NCBI GenBank assembly: GCA_947625495.1
Contig: CANQOQ010000003.1
Span: forward strand, 62,001-126,000
Length of the DNA stretch: 64,000 bases
Origin: Candidatus Gastranaerophilales bacterium
GTDB lineage: Bacteria; Cyanobacteriota; Vampirovibrionia; Gastranaerophilales; Gastranaerophilaceae
Reading direction: 5' to 3'
The notes below the pieces were generated by a model. That model worked only from the letters and a program-made list of their open reading frames with translations, was not told the DNA's origin and made no database searches. The position numbers were made by a program, and so were the translations under genes. Below, one piece after another: positions 16,493 to 28,715 of the stretch. How positions within the stretch are numbered: position 1 is the first letter of the stretch; each line of letters starts with the position of its first letter.

Positions 16493-16816
16493 TTAAATTA
16501 AATACTTATCATTATTAGCACCGGGGATTTTAACGACGACATTTTGCGTATCATCTTCAAGGCATTCAAAATCCGTTGATTCATTAGGCTCCATTACAAT
16601 TATATCACCTTTTTTATATTCTACACCATTCATTCTCACTCTGCCTTGAATAATTACCGTGATTTCAGTTGCGATTTTATGATAGTGACGCTCTTCATAA
16701 TCACCTTTTTTATAGCTTTTAACCGCTGCCTCAACATCATTTGTCTTATATAATGTCGGTTTGAAGTTACCTACGAACCAACCTTTTATCATATCTTCAA
16801 GTTTAGCTGTTTTCAT
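16493..16816 (-). CDS. small cytoplasmic cupin protein
   Basis: 107 residues, no signal peptide. The core cupin motif is visible as 'YEERHYHKIATEITVIIQG' (metal-type His-x-His and Glu), with the second motif around 'YKKGDIIVMEPNESTDFE'. It is the last gene of the operon with two nucleotidyltransferases, a HAD phosphatase and a GDPD-like protein, 13 bases after the preceding gene. A role in forming or isomerising a sugar or polyol phosphate for the glycan is inferred from context only. Confidence 0.7.
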   Translation of the reverse strand: MKTAKLEDMIKGWFVGNFKPTLYKTNDVEAAVKSYKKGDYEERHYHKIATEITVIIQGRVRMNGVEYKKGDIIVMEPNESTDFECLEDDTQNVVVKIPGANNDKYLI

Positions 16817-16829
16817 CTGAGTTTTCGTT

Positions 16830-17558
16830 TCATTCTTTGCTTATATTTTTTATATACTTATCTAAATCTTCAGGTGTTCCGATTCCATGCATAGCAGTTT
16901 TATCTATTGTATAAATGCCGAATTTTTTGCCTTGACTTATAGCATAGTTATAAACAGGCGCTACATAAAATTCATTATTTACTCTTTCATTTCTGACTAT
17001 CATATCTATTGCGTTTTGAACAAAATCGCATCCGTGCTTAAAATAATAAATACCGACTGTTGCATACTCTGATATGACTTCTTTTTCTCTAATCATGACA
17101 ATATTGCCATTTTCATCAAGCTTTGCATAGGACCATTTTTTATCGTTATCTTCAAAACAAAGTACAGATCCGTCAAGCTCGCGATTTTCACTATCATCAA
17201 TGTAATCAGCTATATTCATATCAACAATTTGATCTGAATTTGCAATTAATAATGGAATATCATTATTAATAAGACGATGTGTATGTAATACCGTGCAAGC
17301 TGCACCTTCCGTTAATTTATCAATCAAATCAAATTCGACATTATAATTAGCCTTAATCCAATTAACAGTATTTTGCTCATTTTCATAATGCTCAGCACGT
17401 GCAAGAAGAATAAATTTAGCATTTTTTATCTTTAAATTATCCAAGACATGGCAGATCATGGGTTTACCCATAACATCAATGAACGGTTTTGGTTTAGCGT
17501 ATCCTGCTTTAGCAAATCTTGAACCTGCTCCTGCCATCGGTATTACTATATTTATCAT
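16830..17558 (-). CDS. nucleotidyltransferase (NTP_transferase family)
   Basis: 242 residues. The nucleotide-binding signature is canonical: 'IPMAGAGSRFAKAGYAKPKP' followed by 'GKPMICHVL'. The metal-binding Asp lies in 'LLIANSDQIVD', and the substrate-side strand ends in 'GIGTPEDLDKYI'. The family joins an NTP to a sugar- or polyol-phosphate. It is paralogous to the gene just upstream (17576-18310), and the HAD phosphatase precedes both. I cannot tell the NTP or substrate from the sequence. Confidence 0.8.
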   Translation of the reverse strand: MINIVIPMAGAGSRFAKAGYAKPKPFIDVMGKPMICHVLDNLKIKNAKFILLARAEHYENEQNTVNWIKANYNVEFDLIDKLTEGAACTVLHTHRLINNDIPLLIANSDQIVDMNIADYIDDSENRELDGSVLCFEDNDKKWSYAKLDENGNIVMIREKEVISEYATVGIYYFKHGCDFVQNAIDMIVRNERVNNEFYVAPVYNYAISQGKKFGIYTIDKTAMHGIGTPEDLDKYIKNISKE

Positions 17559-17575
17559 TTATTCTCCTTTATTAA

Positions 17576-18310
17576 TTATCTTGCAACAGTTCCCCTGTGT
17601 GCCATATAATTTTCATACATTTGATAGCTTGAAAAAGAAATGTAGTCTTTTTTTGGAATTTCATAAATGCCGATTTTTTTATTGTTTAAAATCATTTCAT
17701 TAAAAGTTGAACTTATATAATACTGTCCATTGGTATTTACGTCTTTTTCAATAACACAAAAAGCGGCACTTACGAAATCAGAACCTTTTTTAAAATAGCA
17801 GCAGCCTGTTGAAGCCAAATTTGAAATTGGTCTTTTTTCACTTGTCTGGACAACATAATCATTTTTATCCAACAAGACCGAGCTGTATTTAGGATGAATT
17901 GCTTTAAAAATAACTATTCCGCCATCTAGCTTGCGTTGTTTAAAATCATTAAGAGCCGGGGCAATATCCGTTTTTATAAGTTGATCACCGTTTAAAATTA
18001 ATAATTCATCGTCATTATTAATATCATCAATCGCAAACAATGCAGTGCAAATAGCACCTTTTGTGTCGCCTTGAGTTTCTATAACTTTTATTTGAGGGGA
18101 CATTATCTTTAATGTGTCGCCTAAATAATACTTTTGCTGGTCTTCTTTTCTTATAATACAAGTGATTTTATTGCTGATATTGTTTAGAGAATCAATAATT
18201 CTTTGAATTAAAGGTTTATTTTGTATTTCAATTAAATATCTGGGGTATAAAAATCCTTTTTGTTCAAAATCCTTTGAATTTCCCGCCATTAAAATTATAA
18301 TATTCATCAT
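17576..18310 (-). CDS. divergent nucleotidyltransferase paralogue
   Basis: 244 residues with the same fold and layout as the next gene (16830-17558): 'LNGDQLIKTD' for the metal site, 'STGCCYFKKGSDFV' against 'TVGIYYFKHGCDFV', and a similar C-terminal strand. The N-terminal glycine signature is degraded, 'LMAGNSKDFEQKGFLYPRYL', lacking the usual G-x-G-[ST]-R. It may be a non-catalytic partner, or may use a different donor. It overlaps the HAD gene by 4 bases. Confidence 0.7.
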   Translation of the reverse strand: MMNIIILMAGNSKDFEQKGFLYPRYLIEIQNKPLIQRIIDSLNNISNKITCIIRKEDQQKYYLGDTLKIMSPQIKVIETQGDTKGAICTALFAIDDINNDDELLILNGDQLIKTDIAPALNDFKQRKLDGGIVIFKAIHPKYSSVLLDKNDYVVQTSEKRPISNLASTGCCYFKKGSDFVSAAFCVIEKDVNTNGQYYISSTFNEMILNNKKIGIYEIPKKDYISFSSYQMYENYMAHRGTVAR

Positions 18311-18957
18311 CTTACCCCTATATAGCTTTTAGCGCCTTCAATTTCATTTATACGATTTTTTATATTTTGATAAGTCACATCATATACCGTTTGAACCTTT
18401 AATAAATTAGCTCCGCTTGCCAAAGCTGCTTTTATGCCGTTTTGATTATCTTCAATAATAAGGCATTCATCGGGGTTGTAGCCGAATCTTTTTATTGCGG
18501 TTTGATAAATTTCTGGATCGGGCTTAGGTTTAACCACATCTTGATTAGATAAAGTAAAATCCAGATATTTAACTAAATCTGCTTTTTCCATCATCATATC
18601 AATAGTAATTCTGACTGAATTTGAAGCAAGTGCCAAGCCGTAGCCTTCATTTTTTAATTTAGCAAGAGCATATTGATGATGAAACATGGGTTTACACTTC
18701 ATATAAACATGTTCCATTGTATAAATTTGTTTCATGTAATTTATGAACTTATGCAGACCTTTAGGTAATCCTTTTTCAATAGAAAGCATTTCAAGCTTTT
18801 TTCTTGTCGGAAGTCCGTCAAATGTTACAAGATGATCATATCGGCTTATATTATAGCCAAACAAATTTAATGCCTGATTAAGTGCTTCATAGTGCCAGTC
18901 TTTAGCATCAATTAAAACTCCATCCATGTCAAAAATAACTGCTTTAATTTTACTCAT
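18307..18957 (-). CDS. HAD-superfamily hydrolase (phosphatase/phosphoglucomutase-like)
   Basis: 216 residues. Motif I is 'FDMDGVLIDAKDWHYEAL' with both Asp residues. Motif II lies in 'LALASNSVR', a Lys in 'KPKPDPEIY', and motif IV in 'CLIIEDNQNGIKAA'. The cap is of the beta-phosphoglucomutase type. It overlaps the phosphodiesterase gene upstream by 8 bases and the nucleotidyltransferase downstream by 4, so its translation depends on the operon. A likely task is removing or moving a phosphate on a sugar or polyol before nucleotidyl transfer (inference). Confidence 0.85.
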   Translation of the reverse strand: MSKIKAVIFDMDGVLIDAKDWHYEALNQALNLFGYNISRYDHLVTFDGLPTRKKLEMLSIEKGLPKGLHKFINYMKQIYTMEHVYMKCKPMFHHQYALAKLKNEGYGLALASNSVRITIDMMMEKADLVKYLDFTLSNQDVVKPKPDPEIYQTAIKRFGYNPDECLIIEDNQNGIKAALASGANLLKVQTVYDVTYQNIKNRINEIEGAKSYIGVR

Positions 18958-19619
18958 TAAAATACCTCAAAGCTTCCATAGGATAATCCGTACAAATCAT
19001 TATGCCTTTAATATCTTTATACCTTTGCCAAACATTTTTATATTCTCTTTTGTGAAGGTCAGGAGATACTATGCAGACTTTTTTATTTTTATTTAATAAA
19101 TTTTCTATATCTTTTTTATAAAACCAATCGGAATTAAAACTATCAAGCCAAATGCCCTTGGTCTCTTCAAGTAATATCGGATTTTTTATAATATCGCTAA
19201 TTCCGCTGTAAAAATTCAACCCCAATTTGTGTTGATAAATCATTTCAGGGATTGACATATCAAAAGTAAAATAGTTAGTGCAATTATATTTATTTAACAG
19301 TCTTTTTATCTCATCAGCAAGCCCATCTGCTTTAATATTAAGCGCTAACGGGGGGGGGGAATTTTCTTCCGTCAAAAAGTTTCAAAAGCTCTTCAAAAGT
19401 CATTTCATCACCCTTTGGCATGTTATGAGAAATTACAATAGTTCCTTTTATATCTCTTAAATCCGTTTCGATACCAAAACCACTATCAAAAGCTCGTTCA
19501 AAAGCAGTTTTTGTATTTTTCTCTGATTCTTTCAACCAATACCCGCGATGTGCAAATATTTCGATTTTGTTAATTGCACTACTGTCATAAGCCTGTTGTA
19601 AATATAGACTGGATTTCAT
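18950..19619 (-). pseudogene. phase-variable glycerophosphodiester phosphodiesterase-like gene (frame OFF)
   Basis: The frame starts at 19619 and carries the GDPD active-site set: 'AHRGYWLKES', 'FGIETDLRD' and the second His in 'VISHNMPKG'. At 'FDGRKFPPP' it enters a run of ten C (coding strand) and stops 5 codons later at 19338. The other half continues in another frame ('LALNIKADGLADEIKRLLNK') to 18950. The total length of 670 bases becomes divisible by three if one base is lost, so a tract of 9 (or 12) gives a 222-residue protein. As sequenced it is OFF. It heads the HAD-nucleotidyltransferase-cupin operon. A sequencing slip in the tract is the alternative. Confidence 0.75.
19350..19359. 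repeat. homopolymer tract, 10 G (coding-strand C), contingency locus 1
   Basis: A run of ten G in an AT-rich genome, inside the phosphodiesterase gene. The tract splits a frame whose two parts are both clearly GDPD-like. This is the hallmark of slipped-strand phase variation. Confidence 0.8.
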
Positions 19620-20533: not shown

Positions 20534-21310
20534 TTAATGTTTTACAATATTAAAATTTTTATCTATTACCCCGTTTTTTAGGGCATCTGACAGTATTTCA
20601 TAATCTTTGTCCGTATCAAATTCGAGCCAATTTGAAGTTATTATAATAGGAGTTACTTGTATACCGTCAGATATTATTTTATTAAGGATATCGGTCATAT
20701 ATCCCTGCTCAAAACTTTTACCCGATTGCTCCCACATTTTTCCCATATGATTTTTATAAGTATTAATAAAGGTTTTAATACCGTTTAATAAAAGTTTTAT
20801 AATCCCTACATATCTGTAATCAAGATTATCAGAGGAAGTAACTTCTTTCCCCAGCTCTATTATTTTCCCCTCTTTAACCGTTAAACTTTCTAAGTCATAA
20901 TCTGTAGTATTATATCTTAATTTCCACAAGAATTTCCAGTTATTATCCACAACAACACCAATATCTGAGCGATTATTAATACACATATCCACAACTTTTT
21001 TTGTGTAAAGAATATCAGAATAGCAAATTAAAACATCATCATCCAAAAATTCTTTAGCACACATTAAAGTTTCTATCATATTAGTAGTATCAAATTTTTT
21101 GTTATGATAATATTTAATTCCGTTATAATTAATTTTATCAGCCTTATAACCCGTTACAATTGCAATATCATAAATTCCTGCGCTTTTTAATGTTTCAATT
21201 TGCCTTTCTATAAGAGTTTTTCCGTTTAAATTAAGCATACCTTTGGGTAAATTTTCAGTATATTTCCCCATTCTTGTTCCTTTACCTGCAGCAAGTATAA
21301 TCGCTTTCAT
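20534..21310 (-). CDS. nucleotidyltransferase, Cj1416-like (CTP:phosphoglutamine cytidylyltransferase candidate)
   Basis: 258 residues. The N-terminus 'IILAAGKGTRMGKYTENLPK' is the full signature of LicC-type cytidylyltransferases. It is followed by 'GKTLIERQIETLK' and the metal-binding Asp in 'LICYSDILYT'. Late 'WLEFDTDKDYEI' resembles phosphocholine/phosphonate cytidylyltransferases. In C. jejuni, Cj1416 makes CDP-L-glutamine from CTP and L-glutamine phosphate. Here the gene is third in the operon after a Cj1418-like and a Cj1417-like gene, as in Campylobacter. Its start overlaps the gene upstream by 29 bases. The assignment rests on context as much as on sequence. Confidence 0.65.
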   Translation of the reverse strand: MKAIILAAGKGTRMGKYTENLPKGMLNLNGKTLIERQIETLKSAGIYDIAIVTGYKADKINYNGIKYYHNKKFDTTNMIETLMCAKEFLDDDVLICYSDILYTKKVVDMCINNRSDIGVVVDNNWKFLWKLRYNTTDYDLESLTVKEGKIIELGKEVTSSDNLDYRYVGIIKLLLNGIKTFINTYKNHMGKMWEQSGKSFEQGYMTDILNKIISDGIQVTPIIITSNWLEFDTDKDYEILSDALKNGVIDKNFNIVKH

Positions 21311-21923
21311 TTATTTCTCCGTTCGTATTTATAAAATTTTTAATTAGCTGCTCAGAAAAAATACGAGAAGCTTCATCGTTAAATTTTCTTTCAGGATGCC
21401 ATTGAATTCCTAAAATTTTCATTTTGCCGGAATAAAATGCTTCAATTACATCATTTTCTTTATCTATAGCTAAAACATTAAGTCCTAAAGCCAAATCATT
21501 TTTGAGAATACCGTCATTATGATAATTATTAACGCATATTACTTTATTATTAATATAAACTTCGTGGTCAACTCCGATTACCCTTTTTATTTTTAAATTA
21601 TTAAGAGATGATAATTTCCCGCCTAAAAGCAGATTAACATATTGCATTCCTCTGCAAACGGCAATTATTGGGATTTTATTTTTAACTGCGGCATTAAACA
21701 ATTCCGCTTCAACTAAATCCCTTTCTTGCTGTTCTTTATATATATTTCCCCCGCCCGTTAAAATTAATATATCGGCATTAAATAAATCTGCCTTTTGAAA
21801 GTTTGAAACAGGAATTAATTTTACTCCCAGATTGTTGTAAAAATTTATATAATCTTTTTCAAGCGAATCACAAGAAGCACCGTATGAATTAACTGTTTGT
21901 CTTTGAGTTATTATACCAAGCAA
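21282..21923 (-). CDS. class I glutamine amidotransferase-type hydrolase, Cj1417-like
   Basis: 213 residues of the peptidase C26/gamma-glutamyl hydrolase fold. The nucleophile is the Cys in 'IIAVCRGMQYVNLLLGGKL', and the His-Glu pair lies in 'GIQWHPERKF'. The 'GGGNIYKEQQERDLVEAEL' segment is typical of the family. Cj1417 of C. jejuni hydrolyses CDP-L-glutamine to cytidine diphosphoramidate and glutamate. The position between the kinase (13-base overlap) and the cytidylyltransferase (29-base overlap) is the same as in Campylobacter. Alternative: a general gamma-glutamyl hydrolase such as PuuD. Confidence 0.7.
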   Translation of the reverse strand: MLGIITQRQTVNSYGASCDSLEKDYINFYNNLGVKLIPVSNFQKADLFNADILILTGGGNIYKEQQERDLVEAELFNAAVKNKIPIIAVCRGMQYVNLLLGGKLSSLNNLKIKRVIGVDHEVYINNKVICVNNYHNDGILKNDLALGLNVLAIDKENDVIEAFYSGKMKILGIQWHPERKFNDEASRIFSEQLIKNFINTNGEINESDYTCCR

Positions 21924-24718
21924 ATTTCTTTATCTCCGTTTTCAATTTTACCTGATTTACAATTAATAACTGCCGATTTAAAATGTGAAACTTTTGAATA
22001 AATCTGTTCCCCGACTCCTATAGCGGCAGGCAAACCGAATTCCGAACACCTTATTGCCATATGAGATGCTACTCCGCCATATTTTGTTACCAAGCCTTTT
22101 ATGTTTTTGGTAAATATCCAATCATAACCGGGATCTGCTTTATCTATTAAAACTATTTTCCCCGAAACATCGGCATTTTTATTATTTTCTAAATTAATTA
22201 TTTCGCCCGTGATAATTTTATCCGAAATAAAGTTTGGTTTTGCCTGTTCAAATTTTATAAAAGAAAAACTGTTTTCATCCAGAATAACTTCGGGAAGTTC
22301 AATCTGCGAATTTAATTCCCAAATTTCTTTTCTTCCTTTTATTATGGTAGTTAAAAAATCTTTTAAATCCCACTCATTTTTATATAAATTTGCGGCATAT
22401 ATATCATTAACGGTTAAGAAAGCAAAGTCGCTGCGGCTAAATCCCATTATATTACCTATTTTTGCCAGAATTTCTATTGCAAGCGAAAGTGATTTTGTAA
22501 ATTCAAATTTAAAATATTCCCTTTGTTCAAAAGCGGTTCTTAAAAATTTTACGAAATTATCACATTTTAAATTTAATTGTGCCAAAGGAACTTCAAATAA
22601 TTCTTCATCAATATTTTCGTTAACATTACAATTATTTGATGAAATATTATTAATTTTATATTTTTTTTCAAACTTCATATCGGAATAAACGGGAGTTGTT
22701 ATATCATAAGTCCCTGCTCTTAAATGACCGTATTTTAAATTGAATTCTTTTAAAGAAAGTTTATTACATAAATACAGGTCAAAATCTTTTGCAAATTTTC
22801 CTGCCACTGTATCAATACTGAGCATAAATTTTTCCATTTTATCAAAAGAAATATATGACTTAGCAACAAGAGTTCTGCAAAAGGCCTTAGCTATAAAAGC
22901 ATATCTTGCCTGTCTTGAAAACTGCGGAGTAGCGTTTATTTTTATATTGGAAATCAGAAGCTTAAAGCAGTCATTTAATTGTTTTACCGTTAATTTCTCA
23001 TTTCTCAGCTCACTTTGAACTCTTTTTCTTATTATTTCAAGGTCGGTTAAACTTTTTAAGTCATCTTGCAAAACATCAAAATATTCATTTAATGCCTTTT
23101 GTGTTAATTTATACAGTGATGATTTTATTTCTTCAATTTCTTTTTGATTAAAACCGTTATCAAGTAATTCCTTCAGCTTATCATCAGTTTCAAAATCCAA
23201 ACAGCTCAATGTTATTTCAAATTCTATCTTGTCATGAAGTTTTAAATTATTTTTCAATTTTGTTTTGTAAAAATTAACCAATTTGTTTGTTAGTTTTTCA
23301 CTTACGGAATCAGGAATTAATGAGCGGAATGAATAATCTATGGAAATATAAGGTTTATTGGCAAATCTTCGCATTAAATTATGATTAACTTCTTTATAGC
23401 CCATTGGTACCAAACCCTCATTCCAAGGTCTTGAAGTTATAATTTCTTTATATAAAGAATAATCAAGGTTCTTAGGGTTAGAGCCGATAATTTCCGCAGG
23501 ATTCCAAAACGCCATATCCGAATACATCATTGGTTCATCAGAATAAACATTTAATAATTTTAAATACTTATTTTTTGCATTATCAACCAATTCATATAAA
23601 ATTTCTTCATTTATGTCTTTCTTATATTTATAGTTTGCAGCTAAAGGTCTGACTTGGAAGATAACTACTTTACCGTCATTTTTTATTGCAAATTCAATAT
23701 CAAGAATTATATCCGTTAAAATATCTTCTATTTCTTTAACCGATATAATTAATGGTTTCCATTCTTTCTGTATTTTATCAACCGGACTGTTTCGGAGAAT
23801 TCTTATGGTCTTACTTGCACCTCCCGAGGTAACGGAATCGGTTGAGCCGTTATCATCATAGTTTATTAAATAGTAAGGACGATTTTCCTGAATATCCCTT
23901 GTAAATATTACACCCGAGTATTTTATATTTTCGGTTTGTTTTTGTATTAATATTTGTTCATCGGATTTATTCATGCCCGAAACTTTTTTATAAGAAGCGG
24001 CAACGGAATAAATCGCATTTTCCGTTTCAATTTTACTGGTTGAATCTACATTTAAAATACTTTCAAAACATCCGGCATTAGAGCTGTTAAATCCGTCTTC
24101 CATTGAGCAAGAGCTTCTTACCACTATTTTTGAGCCTTTAAATTTATTTTTTATTTTTTCAAATATTATAGATTTATTTTTATTGAATTCCGACTCCGTT
24201 ACAACTAAAATATCTTCAATTCTGGATTTTTTTAATTTATCCTTTAAATTCAGCAAAGTATTGGCTTTTGTTGAAATAATATCATTTCTTTTTAAAGATA
24301 TATCATTAGTCTCTTTTAACCTGCGATATATATTCTCGGGTGATAATTTTTTGTAATAAGGAATAATTACAATTTTACAATTAACGGATTTTAAAAATTC
24401 ATCCGTAGGCAGAATTTTCCAATGAGAGCCTCTATACAATGTAATTTGTGCTTGGGGATATTTTTCGTGTATTTTTTTCAAATTATTTGTAGGGTCAAAT
24501 GTTTCCTGCGGAATAATTTCATCAATAAGATTAAGTGATTTTAACGTTTGATACCTTTCTTCATAGGTTTCAAGCAGCTGACCAAACCATTCTATTATTG
24601 AATCATCTTTTATTAATCCGAATATATGTAAATCAGAATTTTTTTTAGCTTCCTCAAACGCTTTAATGTGACCGACATGAAGTAAATCTACTATACCAAA
24701 ACTATATGAAATGTTCAT
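21911..24718 (-). CDS. HxGH nucleotidyltransferase fused to PEP-synthase-like kinase (Cj1418-like, L-glutamine kinase candidate)
   Basis: 935 residues from the ATG complementary to 24716-24718, chosen for GAAAGG upstream. Residues ~1-135 are a TagD/GCT-type cytidylyltransferase-like domain ('SFGIVDLLHVGHIKAFEEA', later 'LSPENIYRRLKE'). The next ~500 residues are PEP-synthase-like ATP-binding ('VVRSSCSMEDGFNSSNAGC', 'IFQVRPLA'). The C-terminus is the swivelling phosphohistidine domain with 'GGVASHMAIRCSEFGLPAAI'; its His carries the phosphate. C. jejuni Cj1418 has this kinase architecture and phosphorylates L-glutamine amide nitrogen with ATP. The N-terminal fusion is an addition I do not know from Cj1418. 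First gene of a tight three-gene operon. Confidence 0.7.
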   Translation of the reverse strand: MNISYSFGIVDLLHVGHIKAFEEAKKNSDLHIFGLIKDDSIIEWFGQLLETYEERYQTLKSLNLIDEIIPQETFDPTNNLKKIHEKYPQAQITLYRGSHWKILPTDEFLKSVNCKIVIIPYYKKLSPENIYRRLKETNDISLKRNDIISTKANTLLNLKDKLKKSRIEDILVVTESEFNKNKSIIFEKIKNKFKGSKIVVRSSCSMEDGFNSSNAGCFESILNVDSTSKIETENAIYSVAASYKKVSGMNKSDEQILIQKQTENIKYSGVIFTRDIQENRPYYLINYDDNGSTDSVTSGGASKTIRILRNSPVDKIQKEWKPLIISVKEIEDILTDIILDIEFAIKNDGKVVIFQVRPLAANYKYKKDINEEILYELVDNAKNKYLKLLNVYSDEPMMYSDMAFWNPAEIIGSNPKNLDYSLYKEIITSRPWNEGLVPMGYKEVNHNLMRRFANKPYISIDYSFRSLIPDSVSEKLTNKLVNFYKTKLKNNLKLHDKIEFEITLSCLDFETDDKLKELLDNGFNQKEIEEIKSSLYKLTQKALNEYFDVLQDDLKSLTDLEIIRKRVQSELRNEKLTVKQLNDCFKLLISNIKINATPQFSRQARYAFIAKAFCRTLVAKSYISFDKMEKFMLSIDTVAGKFAKDFDLYLCNKLSLKEFNLKYGHLRAGTYDITTPVYSDMKFEKKYKINNISSNNCNVNENIDEELFEVPLAQLNLKCDNFVKFLRTAFEQREYFKFEFTKSLSLAIEILAKIGNIMGFSRSDFAFLTVNDIYAANLYKNEWDLKDFLTTIIKGRKEIWELNSQIELPEVILDENSFSFIKFEQAKPNFISDKIITGEIINLENNKNADVSGKIVLIDKADPGYDWIFTKNIKGLVTKYGGVASHMAIRCSEFGLPAAIGVGEQIYSKVSHFKSAVINCKSGKIENGDKEICLV

Positions 24719-24733
24719 AATAAAACCTTTCAT

Positions 24734-25080
24734 ACAGTTTTTTTATTATTTTACGGGTTATATTATATAAACACAGATTTGAGGGGGGGGGAATTTTTTA
24801 AAATTTTAAAAGCCTCTTTTTCCATAATTATAACTTTAATTAATTCCAGATCTTTATTGCTTAATATGAATTTTATCATAAATTATAATTTAGTGTAAAC
24901 TATGCCAATAATTTTGGTAATTTTGTCAATTTTTGAATCTGTTTATTTGTATAGTTAACAGTTTAAACTTTAAGCAACAACAACTTTTTCTATCTTTAGA
25001 GTGTTTTTAAAATACAAGACTCTTGTAAAATTGCCGTATATAACAAACTAATTTTAAATTTTTAGCCAAAGTAGTTAAAC
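24734..25080. other. intergenic leader region with promoter and possible small ORFs
   Basis: 347 bases between the kinase operon and the M48 gene. On the minus strand a TATAAT (complement of 24882-24887) lies 163 bases upstream of the kinase start, with a poor TTGGCA-like -35 15 bases before it. The leader contains a small open frame from the ATG complementary to 24877-24879 (MIKFILSNKDLELIKVII...) that runs into the homopolymer tract. With 9 C it stops soon after; with 8 C it would run on and stop just inside the start of the kinase gene. No strong ribosome site precedes it, so translation is uncertain. Confidence 0.5.
24783..24791. repeat. homopolymer tract, 9 G (coding-strand C), contingency locus 2
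   Basis: Nine G between the likely promoter and the start of the glutamine-kinase-like gene, about 65 bases upstream of its ATG. The flank (AAATT before the C run on the coding strand) is the same as at tract 1. Length change here could alter the leader reading frame, the RNA structure or ribosome access of the operon. Confidence 0.75.
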
Positions 25081-26579: not shown

Positions 26580-26655
26580 TGGCTGGGACGGAAGGATTCG
26601 AACCTCCGAGATGCCTGGACCAAAACCAGGTGCCTTACCACTTGGCGACGTCCCA
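26580..26655 (-). tRNA. tRNA-Gln (anticodon TTG)
   Basis: The acceptor stem TGGGACG/CGTCCCA, the anticodon loop with TTG inside CTGG-TTTTGGT-CCAG, and the T-arm GGAGG-TTCGAAT-CCTTC are all visible on the minus strand. The CCA end is encoded (complement of 26580-26582). A terminator follows immediately. It reads CAA glutamine codons and is a likely substrate of the GatCAB route (gatA is in this window). Confidence 0.95.
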
Positions 26656-26732
26656 TTACTTTCGACTATTATATATTATTAACTATACAGTTAAAAGTCA
26701 AGACTTATTTTACCTTATGATATAATCAATAT

Positions 26733-27990
26733 ATGTCGGATTATTTTAAGAATAAAAATATTTTATTAGTTTCACAAAATCTTCAAATTGAAGGTGCTGC
26801 GATTGTACTTTACAATTTAGCACAAATTCTTATTAATCTTGGATTTAATATTGATATTTTAGCTTTTCAAAACGGACCTCTGTCAAAAAAATATAGTGAA
26901 CTTGGTATAAATATTAATTTCGGTTTAAATTATAAGGAATATCCTTTTTTTCTACATCAAAAACTTATCAATTATGATTTAATAATTGCTAATACATCTG
27001 TTTCATACAAAATTGTAGAAAAATTGAAAGATTATGTACCTGTTATATGGTATTTACACGAATCAAAAATACCCGAGTTGTTTATAAAAAATATGGAAAA
27101 TTTTAACAATATTTATTGTGTAAGTGAATATGCGAAAGAAGAACTTGAAAAATCATTTTCAAATCTTAATCAGAGAAAAAATATTAAAATTATATATAAT
27201 TATGTGGAAGACGAAAATAAATCAAAAGAAAAATCCCCCCCCCCGAAAGGATTTCACAACCAATCACGAACATCAAAAGGTTATATTCAATATTGTTGGG
27301 ACAATATCAGAAAGGAAAAATCAGCTTGGGCTTTTAAAAGCATACAGTATATTGCCTGAAAAGTATAAAAATAAGTGTCAAATAAACATAATCGGTTCAA
27401 ATGGAGACTCAAAATACTATAATTCATTAATGCAATTAAAAGATGATAATATCAATTTTACCGGCGTAGTCACGGGAAATAAAAGAATTGAATTATTTAA
27501 TGCTGCTGATGTATTTGTAGTACCTTCTCTTGATGATCCTGCATCATTAGTTGTATTTGAGGCTTGCATGTTATCTAAACCGTTAATCGTTTCCGATAAA
27601 GTCGGTGCAAAATATATGCTAAACGATAAAAACGGTATTATTTTTAAATATGATGATATTCAAGCTTTAAAAGATTCTTTAATTTATATGATTGACAATA
27701 AAGACTCTCTAACCGAGATGGGGAAATATTCACGAAAGATGTATGAACAACTTGCTACAAAAGAAAAATATATTAATGATTGGATAAATATTCTTAAAAA
27801 TGAATTTAATAAACAACACAATCTTAAAGATAAAAGCGATTTTAAAATAAAACACTCATTTTTATTGCCCATAACTGTTACAATTAATATTATATACAAT
27901 TTCTTATCTTATAAAATTTCGAAGCAAGAAAAGAAAAAATATTCTTTAGAAAAAAATATAAATATACTAAAAAACATATATAATTTATAA
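26733..27990 (+). pseudogene. phase-variable GT4-type glycosyltransferase (frame OFF)
   Basis: The first frame (from ATG 26733) encodes the acceptor half of a GT-B enzyme ('NILLVSQNLQIEGAAIVLYN', 'IWYLHES', 'IYCVSEYAKEEL'). At 'EDENKSKEKSPPP' it meets ten C and ends at 27359. The donor half lies in another frame ('FNIVGTISERKNQLGLLKAY', 'ADVFVVPSLDDPASLVVFEA' with the GT4 Glu-x7-Glu-like site) and ends at 27990. Total length is 1258 bases; losing one C gives 418 codons, a normal GT4 length. So 9 or 12 C is ON and the present 10 is OFF. It is monocistronic, probably adding a sugar to a surface glycan. Confidence 0.8.
27235..27244. repeat. homopolymer tract, 10 C, contingency locus 3
   Basis: Ten C in the linker between the two Rossmann domains of the glycosyltransferase, preceded by GAAAAAT. 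Frame bookkeeping shows that exactly one base too many separates two halves of one protein. Confidence 0.8.
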
Positions 27991-28058: not shown

Positions 28059-28715
28059 ATGCAGGCAAGACGTGCGGCGAGAGAGCTGGCTTTAATATTA
28101 TTTTCACAGATGGATTCAATACAAAATCTCAATAAATGGGATTTTCAGGATATTGTTTTAAAATCGGTAAGGACATTGACGAATAATTCTGCTGATGATT
28201 TAAAATCAATAGCAGCTTCTATTCTTGAAATGAAAGAATTTATTGAAGAATATGAGTCCAATCATCCGAAAAATCTTGAAAGACCTATTGAAGTATCAAA
28301 TATTCCCGTTCCGATTCCAATGACATCTGATATGCAGGGGAAATTAGACGAACTTTTAAATATTGCGGAAAAGACCATGCTTGCTCTTGAAATAGCTGAA
28401 ATGTCAGCCTTGGAAGAAAATTCCGATGTTAAAGAATATATTATAAAGATTGCCGATGCGTTTAAAACTCATAAAGATGAAATTGATGAACAAATTAAGA
28501 AATTTGCATTCGGCTGGGATATTAACCGTCTTGTTAAAATGGACAAGGATATTTTAAGAATTGCTATTTGCGAGCTTTTATATGTAAAAGATGCTCCTTT
28601 GAAGGTTATTATTGATGAAGCATTAGAACTTGCAAAAAAATATTCTACGGATGATTCCGCTTCATTTGTCAACGGCATTTTAGGCAAAGTGGTTATTGAA
28701 AATAATCTGAAATAG
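28059..28715 (+). CDS. nusB: transcription antitermination factor NusB (long form)
   Basis: 218 residues. The C-terminal NusB core is clear: 'NRLVKMDKDILRIAICELLY' then 'PLKVIIDEALELAKKYS' and 'SASFVNGILGKV'. The N-terminus 'MQARRAARELALILFSQMD' is also typical. About 70 extra residues separate the first helices from the core, as in cyanobacterial NusB. It binds boxA RNA with NusE in rRNA antitermination complexes. ftsY follows after 15 bases, a gene order I associate with cyanobacteria. Confidence 0.93.
   Translation: MQARRAARELALILFSQMDSIQNLNKWDFQDIVLKSVRTLTNNSADDLKSIAASILEMKEFIEEYESNHPKNLERPIEVSNIPVPIPMTSDMQGKLDELLNIAEKTMLALEIAEMSALEENSDVKEYIIKIADAFKTHKDEIDEQIKKFAFGWDINRLVKMDKDILRIAICELLYVKDAPLKVIIDEALELAKKYSTDDSASFVNGILGKVVIENNLK

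Follow-up and report, generated by a model that had tools for sequence, protein, structure and literature searches.

An accessory GT4-type glycosyltransferase gene with probable slipped-strand phase variation in a gut Gastranaerophilales bacterium

Phase variation by poly-G/C tracts has mostly been studied in mucosal pathogens (Campylobacter, Helicobacter, Neisseria). Phase variation of the Neisseria porA type depends on a homopolymer between the promoter elements, which sets their spacing. Among the poly-G/C tracts of Campylobacter, 53% have a length of 9 and 26% a length of 10 (PMC6321876). Reports on Helicobacter canadensis and Bordetella pertussis take homopolymeric tracts in reading frames and regulatory regions as phase-variable (PMC2823697, PMC1891110). 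Neither cyanobacteria nor Melainabacteria are mentioned in a 2025 review (PMC11868660). Our literature search, which had most subscription journals outside its range, found no description of phase variation for Gastranaerophilales or Melainabacteria, and its sole joint match was a flagellin survey. The mechanism is known; phase variation in this lineage is, provisionally, apparently undescribed.

The window, the whole 64,000-nt stretch of DNA that was analysed, belongs to an AT-rich genome of 1,879,619 bases (1.88 Mb) in 51 contigs. It contains a glycosyltransferase gene that is read in two pieces, with the following features.

26733 to 27359, + strand: 5' part of the glycosyltransferase gene; 208 aa including an out-of-frame tail, with GT4 N-terminal domains (Pfam)
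27229 to 27233, + strand: A5 run just 5' of the C10 run; the sister genome, with its in-frame gene, has A7 here
27235 to 27244, + strand: C10, the candidate contingency tract, within the linker between the two domains
27124 to 27990, + strand: 3' open frame; 288 aa, with a Glycos_transf_1 C-terminal domain (Pfam) and homology that starts just past the tract

The initial annotation had described a run of ten C that splits a GT4-type gene at the linker between its two domains. Counting the run in the sequence gave exactly 27235-27244 on the + strand, and the linker position was borne out by the intact protein of the sister genome, a metagenome-assembled genome of Candidatus Gastranaerophilales bacterium isolate Lapin-005__bin11 (G026, record CANQCO010000015.1). 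In the numbering of that protein, the tract encodes about residues 168-172, between N-domain matches that run up to residue 160 and a C-domain match that begins at 175. The gene spans 1258 nt, with its ATG at 26733 and its stop at 27990; minus one base, this makes 418 codons and a stop, which confirms the claim that one base fewer gives 418 residues. The tract lies inside the frame and passes the cut-off used for Campylobacter, a G/C run of at least 7. It reads C on the coding strand, as only 5% of the ORF tracts in Campylobacter do (PMC6321876).

Glyco_trans_4_5 and then Glycos_transf_1 were found above the Pfam cut-off in the sister protein, and the domains also occur in order in the two halves in the window. 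Residues 183-350 match glycogen synthase chains in a sequence search. At the E-x7-E position of the C-terminal domain, D-x7-E (DPASLVVxE) was read by eye in the window, in the sister, and in a second relative (G005). We infer that the enzyme is a GT4-type glycosyltransferase, with sugar-transfer activity predicted. A single-sequence structure model had a pLDDT of 47.7, too poor for fold assignment.

Close copies of the gene were present in only two others among the 58 genomes searched, the sister and G005. The sister allele is one open frame of 419 aa with about 97% amino acid identity to the window. The G005 homologue (61% identity) is intact, with a shorter linker and without the tract. Counting the frame, together with the unbroken sister allele, indicates that translation of the full protein depends on repeat length; in the sister, it is the adjacent A-run that makes the difference. 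The idea that the C tract switches the gene off therefore stood in part. The frame is set at the tract, but C length is not what separates an ON from an OFF allele here, since both genomes have C10 and the preceding A-run is 5 in the window and 7 in the sister. It is plausible that the A-run and the C-run are both slippage sites.

The C10 run, in the linker between the two domains of an accessory enzyme, would act as a contingency tract prone to slippage. Slipped-strand mispairing would alter the length of the C tract, and probably that of the neighbouring A-run, and shift the frame. The ON state would give the full two-domain enzyme of 418-419 aa and the OFF state a 208-aa fragment, with the assembled genome representing the OFF state. 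Slipping of tRNA-Pro by +1 on CCC-C is established biochemistry, and +1 is the shift needed here, so a ribosome shift could also yield the full enzyme from unchanged DNA, alone or combined with phase variation. As the explanation of the split, such recoding is extremely unlikely, because the sister gene is in frame without it, the G005 homologue has no tract, and many tracts of this genome lie upstream of genes or are read as G-runs.

Comparison with related genomes, which had been set earlier as a check on the switch, revealed no other inactivating changes in the gene in either relative. Between the window and the sister, dN/dS was 0.165 before the tract and 0.157 after it, an estimate that rests on two genomes and in which changes cannot be assigned to one lineage. 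Synonymous changes were in excess in each half (Fisher p 0.006 before the tract and 0.0002 after it). Purifying selection is evident in the two halves alike, which is not what one would expect of a 3' half that had long been dead, so the OFF state looks recent or reversible and not like an old pseudogene. The OFF call for this species rests on one metagenome assembly, and the broken frame in that single assembly could also come from a one-off frameshift that killed the gene, with the C-run incidental. We consider a fixed pseudogene of this kind improbable, given that the gene carries no other damage, dN/dS is near 0.16 in both halves, and the sister allele is intact with the same C10.

The surroundings of the locus were compared with those in relatives.

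26580 to 26655, - strand: tRNA-Gln (ttg), the divergent neighbour; a conserved site next to nusB in relatives
26718 to 26726, + strand: putative extended -10 box, TGATATAAT, read from the sequence; ends 6 nt 5' of the ATG
28059 to 28715, + strand: nusB-like gene, the downstream neighbour

The gap between tRNA-Gln and nusB is about 1.4 kb here and contains the GT4 gene. In ten same-genus genomes, the distance is 125-162 nt, too short for this gene; the site is conserved and the gene itself accessory. The G005 homologue likewise lies 3' of tRNA-Gln. The initial annotation had assigned the gene its own promoter after tRNA-Gln, and this fared less clearly. The -10-like box occurs at equal spacing in both relatives (kept in the sister, TATGAT in G005), but the -35 is poor and a consensus scan listed no + strand promoter just 5' of the gene. 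A promoter of its own is plausible. A leaderless message is possible, as a -10 box 6 nt before the ATG would fit it. Since nusB is on the same strand, 68 nt downstream, the OFF state could be polar on it.

The tract is one of many. Counts of C/G runs in the window drop fast up to length 5, of which there are few; none has a length of 6-8, and three have a length of 9-10 (19350-19359, 24783-24791, and 27235-27244). A chance origin of the tracts was ruled out by dinucleotide shuffles, which gave a mean of 0.17 C8 matches against 8 in the window, and by a first-order Markov estimate of about 1.1 runs of at least 9 per 1.88 Mb against 38 found. Outside the window, counts come from pattern searches and from sequence stretches around the tracts. 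A pattern search gave 52 C9 matches in the genome, and 39 C/G runs of 8-10 were resolved (24 C9, 14 C10, and one C8). The C6 match counts leave space for few runs of 6-8 genome-wide. The 38 like tracts besides the one in GT4, several within open frames, also argue against an isolated frameshift in the GT4 gene.

Phase variation is by far the best reading of the GT4 split and the genome-wide tracts, because the tract sets the frame, the sister allele is intact, both halves of the gene are under purifying selection, and like tracts occur across the genome. We regard slipped-strand phase variation of this accessory glycosyltransferase, as one member of a phasome, as very probable. Active reversible switching and a role in surface glycans are what we infer from the gene and its tract. 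The GT4 locus would be one of about 39 tracts, located partly in coding sequence and partly in promoter spacers, whose joint effect is probably to diversify the surface glycans and surface proteins of this gut bacterium.

Tract length was compared at eight matched tracts, whose flanks are mostly 84-99% identical, with one pair near 79%. The lengths in the window genome and the sister were 10/10 for GT4 and 10/10, 10/11, 9/9, 8/9, 9/9, 9/10, and 9/9 for the others, a difference of one base in three of the eight. Across 117 genomes, C9 matches ranged from 0 to 487 per genome. Many Gastranaerophilaceae share such tracts, and tract-rich genomes, common in this family, are less frequent in the order's other families. 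Loss of mismatch repair was rejected as the cause of the tracts, as this genome has mutS and so do its tract-rich as well as its tract-poor relatives. The sole same-genus genome without a mutS match (G001) has no C9 tracts. Within a single family, C9 counts spread from 0 to 487 matches, without a link to mutS presence.

The tract set resembles the Campylobacter phasome in length, with 62% of tracts at 9 and 36% at 10 here and 49% and 33% in the sister, compared to 53% and 26% there (PMC6321876). Both are found in AT-rich gut bacteria with many tracts per genome and glycan-modifying genes among the targets. In contrast to Campylobacter, this bacterium belongs to another phylum-level lineage and has more upstream tracts. 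Helicobacter canadensis and Bordetella pertussis are alike in having tracts in frames and regulatory regions and are unrelated in lineage. We lean towards a lineage-wide poly-G/C phasome in gut Gastranaerophilaceae (Cyanobacteriota/Melainabacteria), both translational and in promoter spacers, which would switch a DNA methylase as well as adhesin-like proteins and surface glycans, share no descent with the phasomes of Campylobacter, Helicobacter, and Neisseria, and be unreported. If true, a tract set of Campylobacter scale in an uncultured non-photosynthetic cyanobacterial relative would suggest that the gut, with its phages, immune system, and neighbours, selects for phase variation. A good many of the genes that look "broken" in this group's genomes may be OFF alleles.

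The two other tracts in the window lie on the - strand.

19350 to 19359, - strand: second window tract; C10 on the coding strand, splits a GDPD-like gene (frames 18950-19381 and 19341-19619)
24783 to 24791, - strand: third window tract; C9 when read on the coding strand; the first ATG of a cytidylyltransferase/PPDK-type gene (21911-24733) lies 49 nt downstream

The GDPD-like gene was named by eye and had no Pfam match. On the - strand at 16493-19619, this split gene precedes a HAD phosphatase, two nucleotidyltransferases, and a cupin. At 20534-24733, also on the - strand, an NTP transferase, a class I glutamine amidotransferase (Peptidase_C26), and the cytidylyltransferase/PPDK_N/PEP-utilizer gene are consecutive, with the C9 just upstream. 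These three resemble Cj1416-Cj1418 of Campylobacter jejuni in enzyme kind. Cj1416-Cj1418 are required for the O-methyl phosphoramidate capsule modification in C. jejuni (PMC3907429).

Genes with a tract in the frame or near the start include the GT4 gene, two GT2, a GT9, two TupA-like ATP-grasp genes, a polysaccharide pyruvyl transferase, a hexapeptide transferase, three tandem acyltransferases, LicD, a cytidylyltransferase/PEP mutase, and the GDPD-like gene. Upstream tracts precede genes for very large proteins, a TPS-domain protein, three kelch proteins, an N6 DNA methylase, and three radical-SAM proteins, one of them below the cut-off. Most of the 39 tracts are at genes of surface type, adhesin-like ones included. 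When sorted by hand, the seven clearly open genes had C9 and the six split genes C10, a rule from which the sister genome departs. This pattern would suit an assembly or sequencing miscount, in which the true C tract or A-run is one base off and the gene is really intact; the 51 contigs probably reflect a metagenome assembly, and homopolymers are prone to such errors. A miscount is nevertheless very unlikely. C10 also occurs at this position in the sister assembly, and while an error could explain the OFF call, it could not explain the tracts, their gene targets, or the missing runs of 6-8 in the window. In L077 (6109-9450, - strand), three tandem paralogous acyltransferase genes have a tract at the same place in each; one is open with C9, and two are split with C10.

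As in the porA-type systems of Neisseria, tracts 16, 17, 21-25, and 39, though not the GT4 tract, lie in promoter spacers by consensus reading. Tracts 17, 21, 22, 23, and 39 have the form TTGC..-G9/10-TAAAAGTGG-TATAAT with slight variations; in tracts 16, 24, and 25, the G-run directly follows TTGACA and is itself followed by a -10-like box. With the G-run between the -35 and -10 boxes, tract length would alter the promoter spacer. In L080, a G10 at 2136-2145 lies about 49 nt upstream of the N6 DNA methylase gene, which, if switchable, could alter the expression of many genes together. A stretch nearly identical to this upstream region precedes another gene, in L067, where the tract length is 10 here and 11 in the sister.
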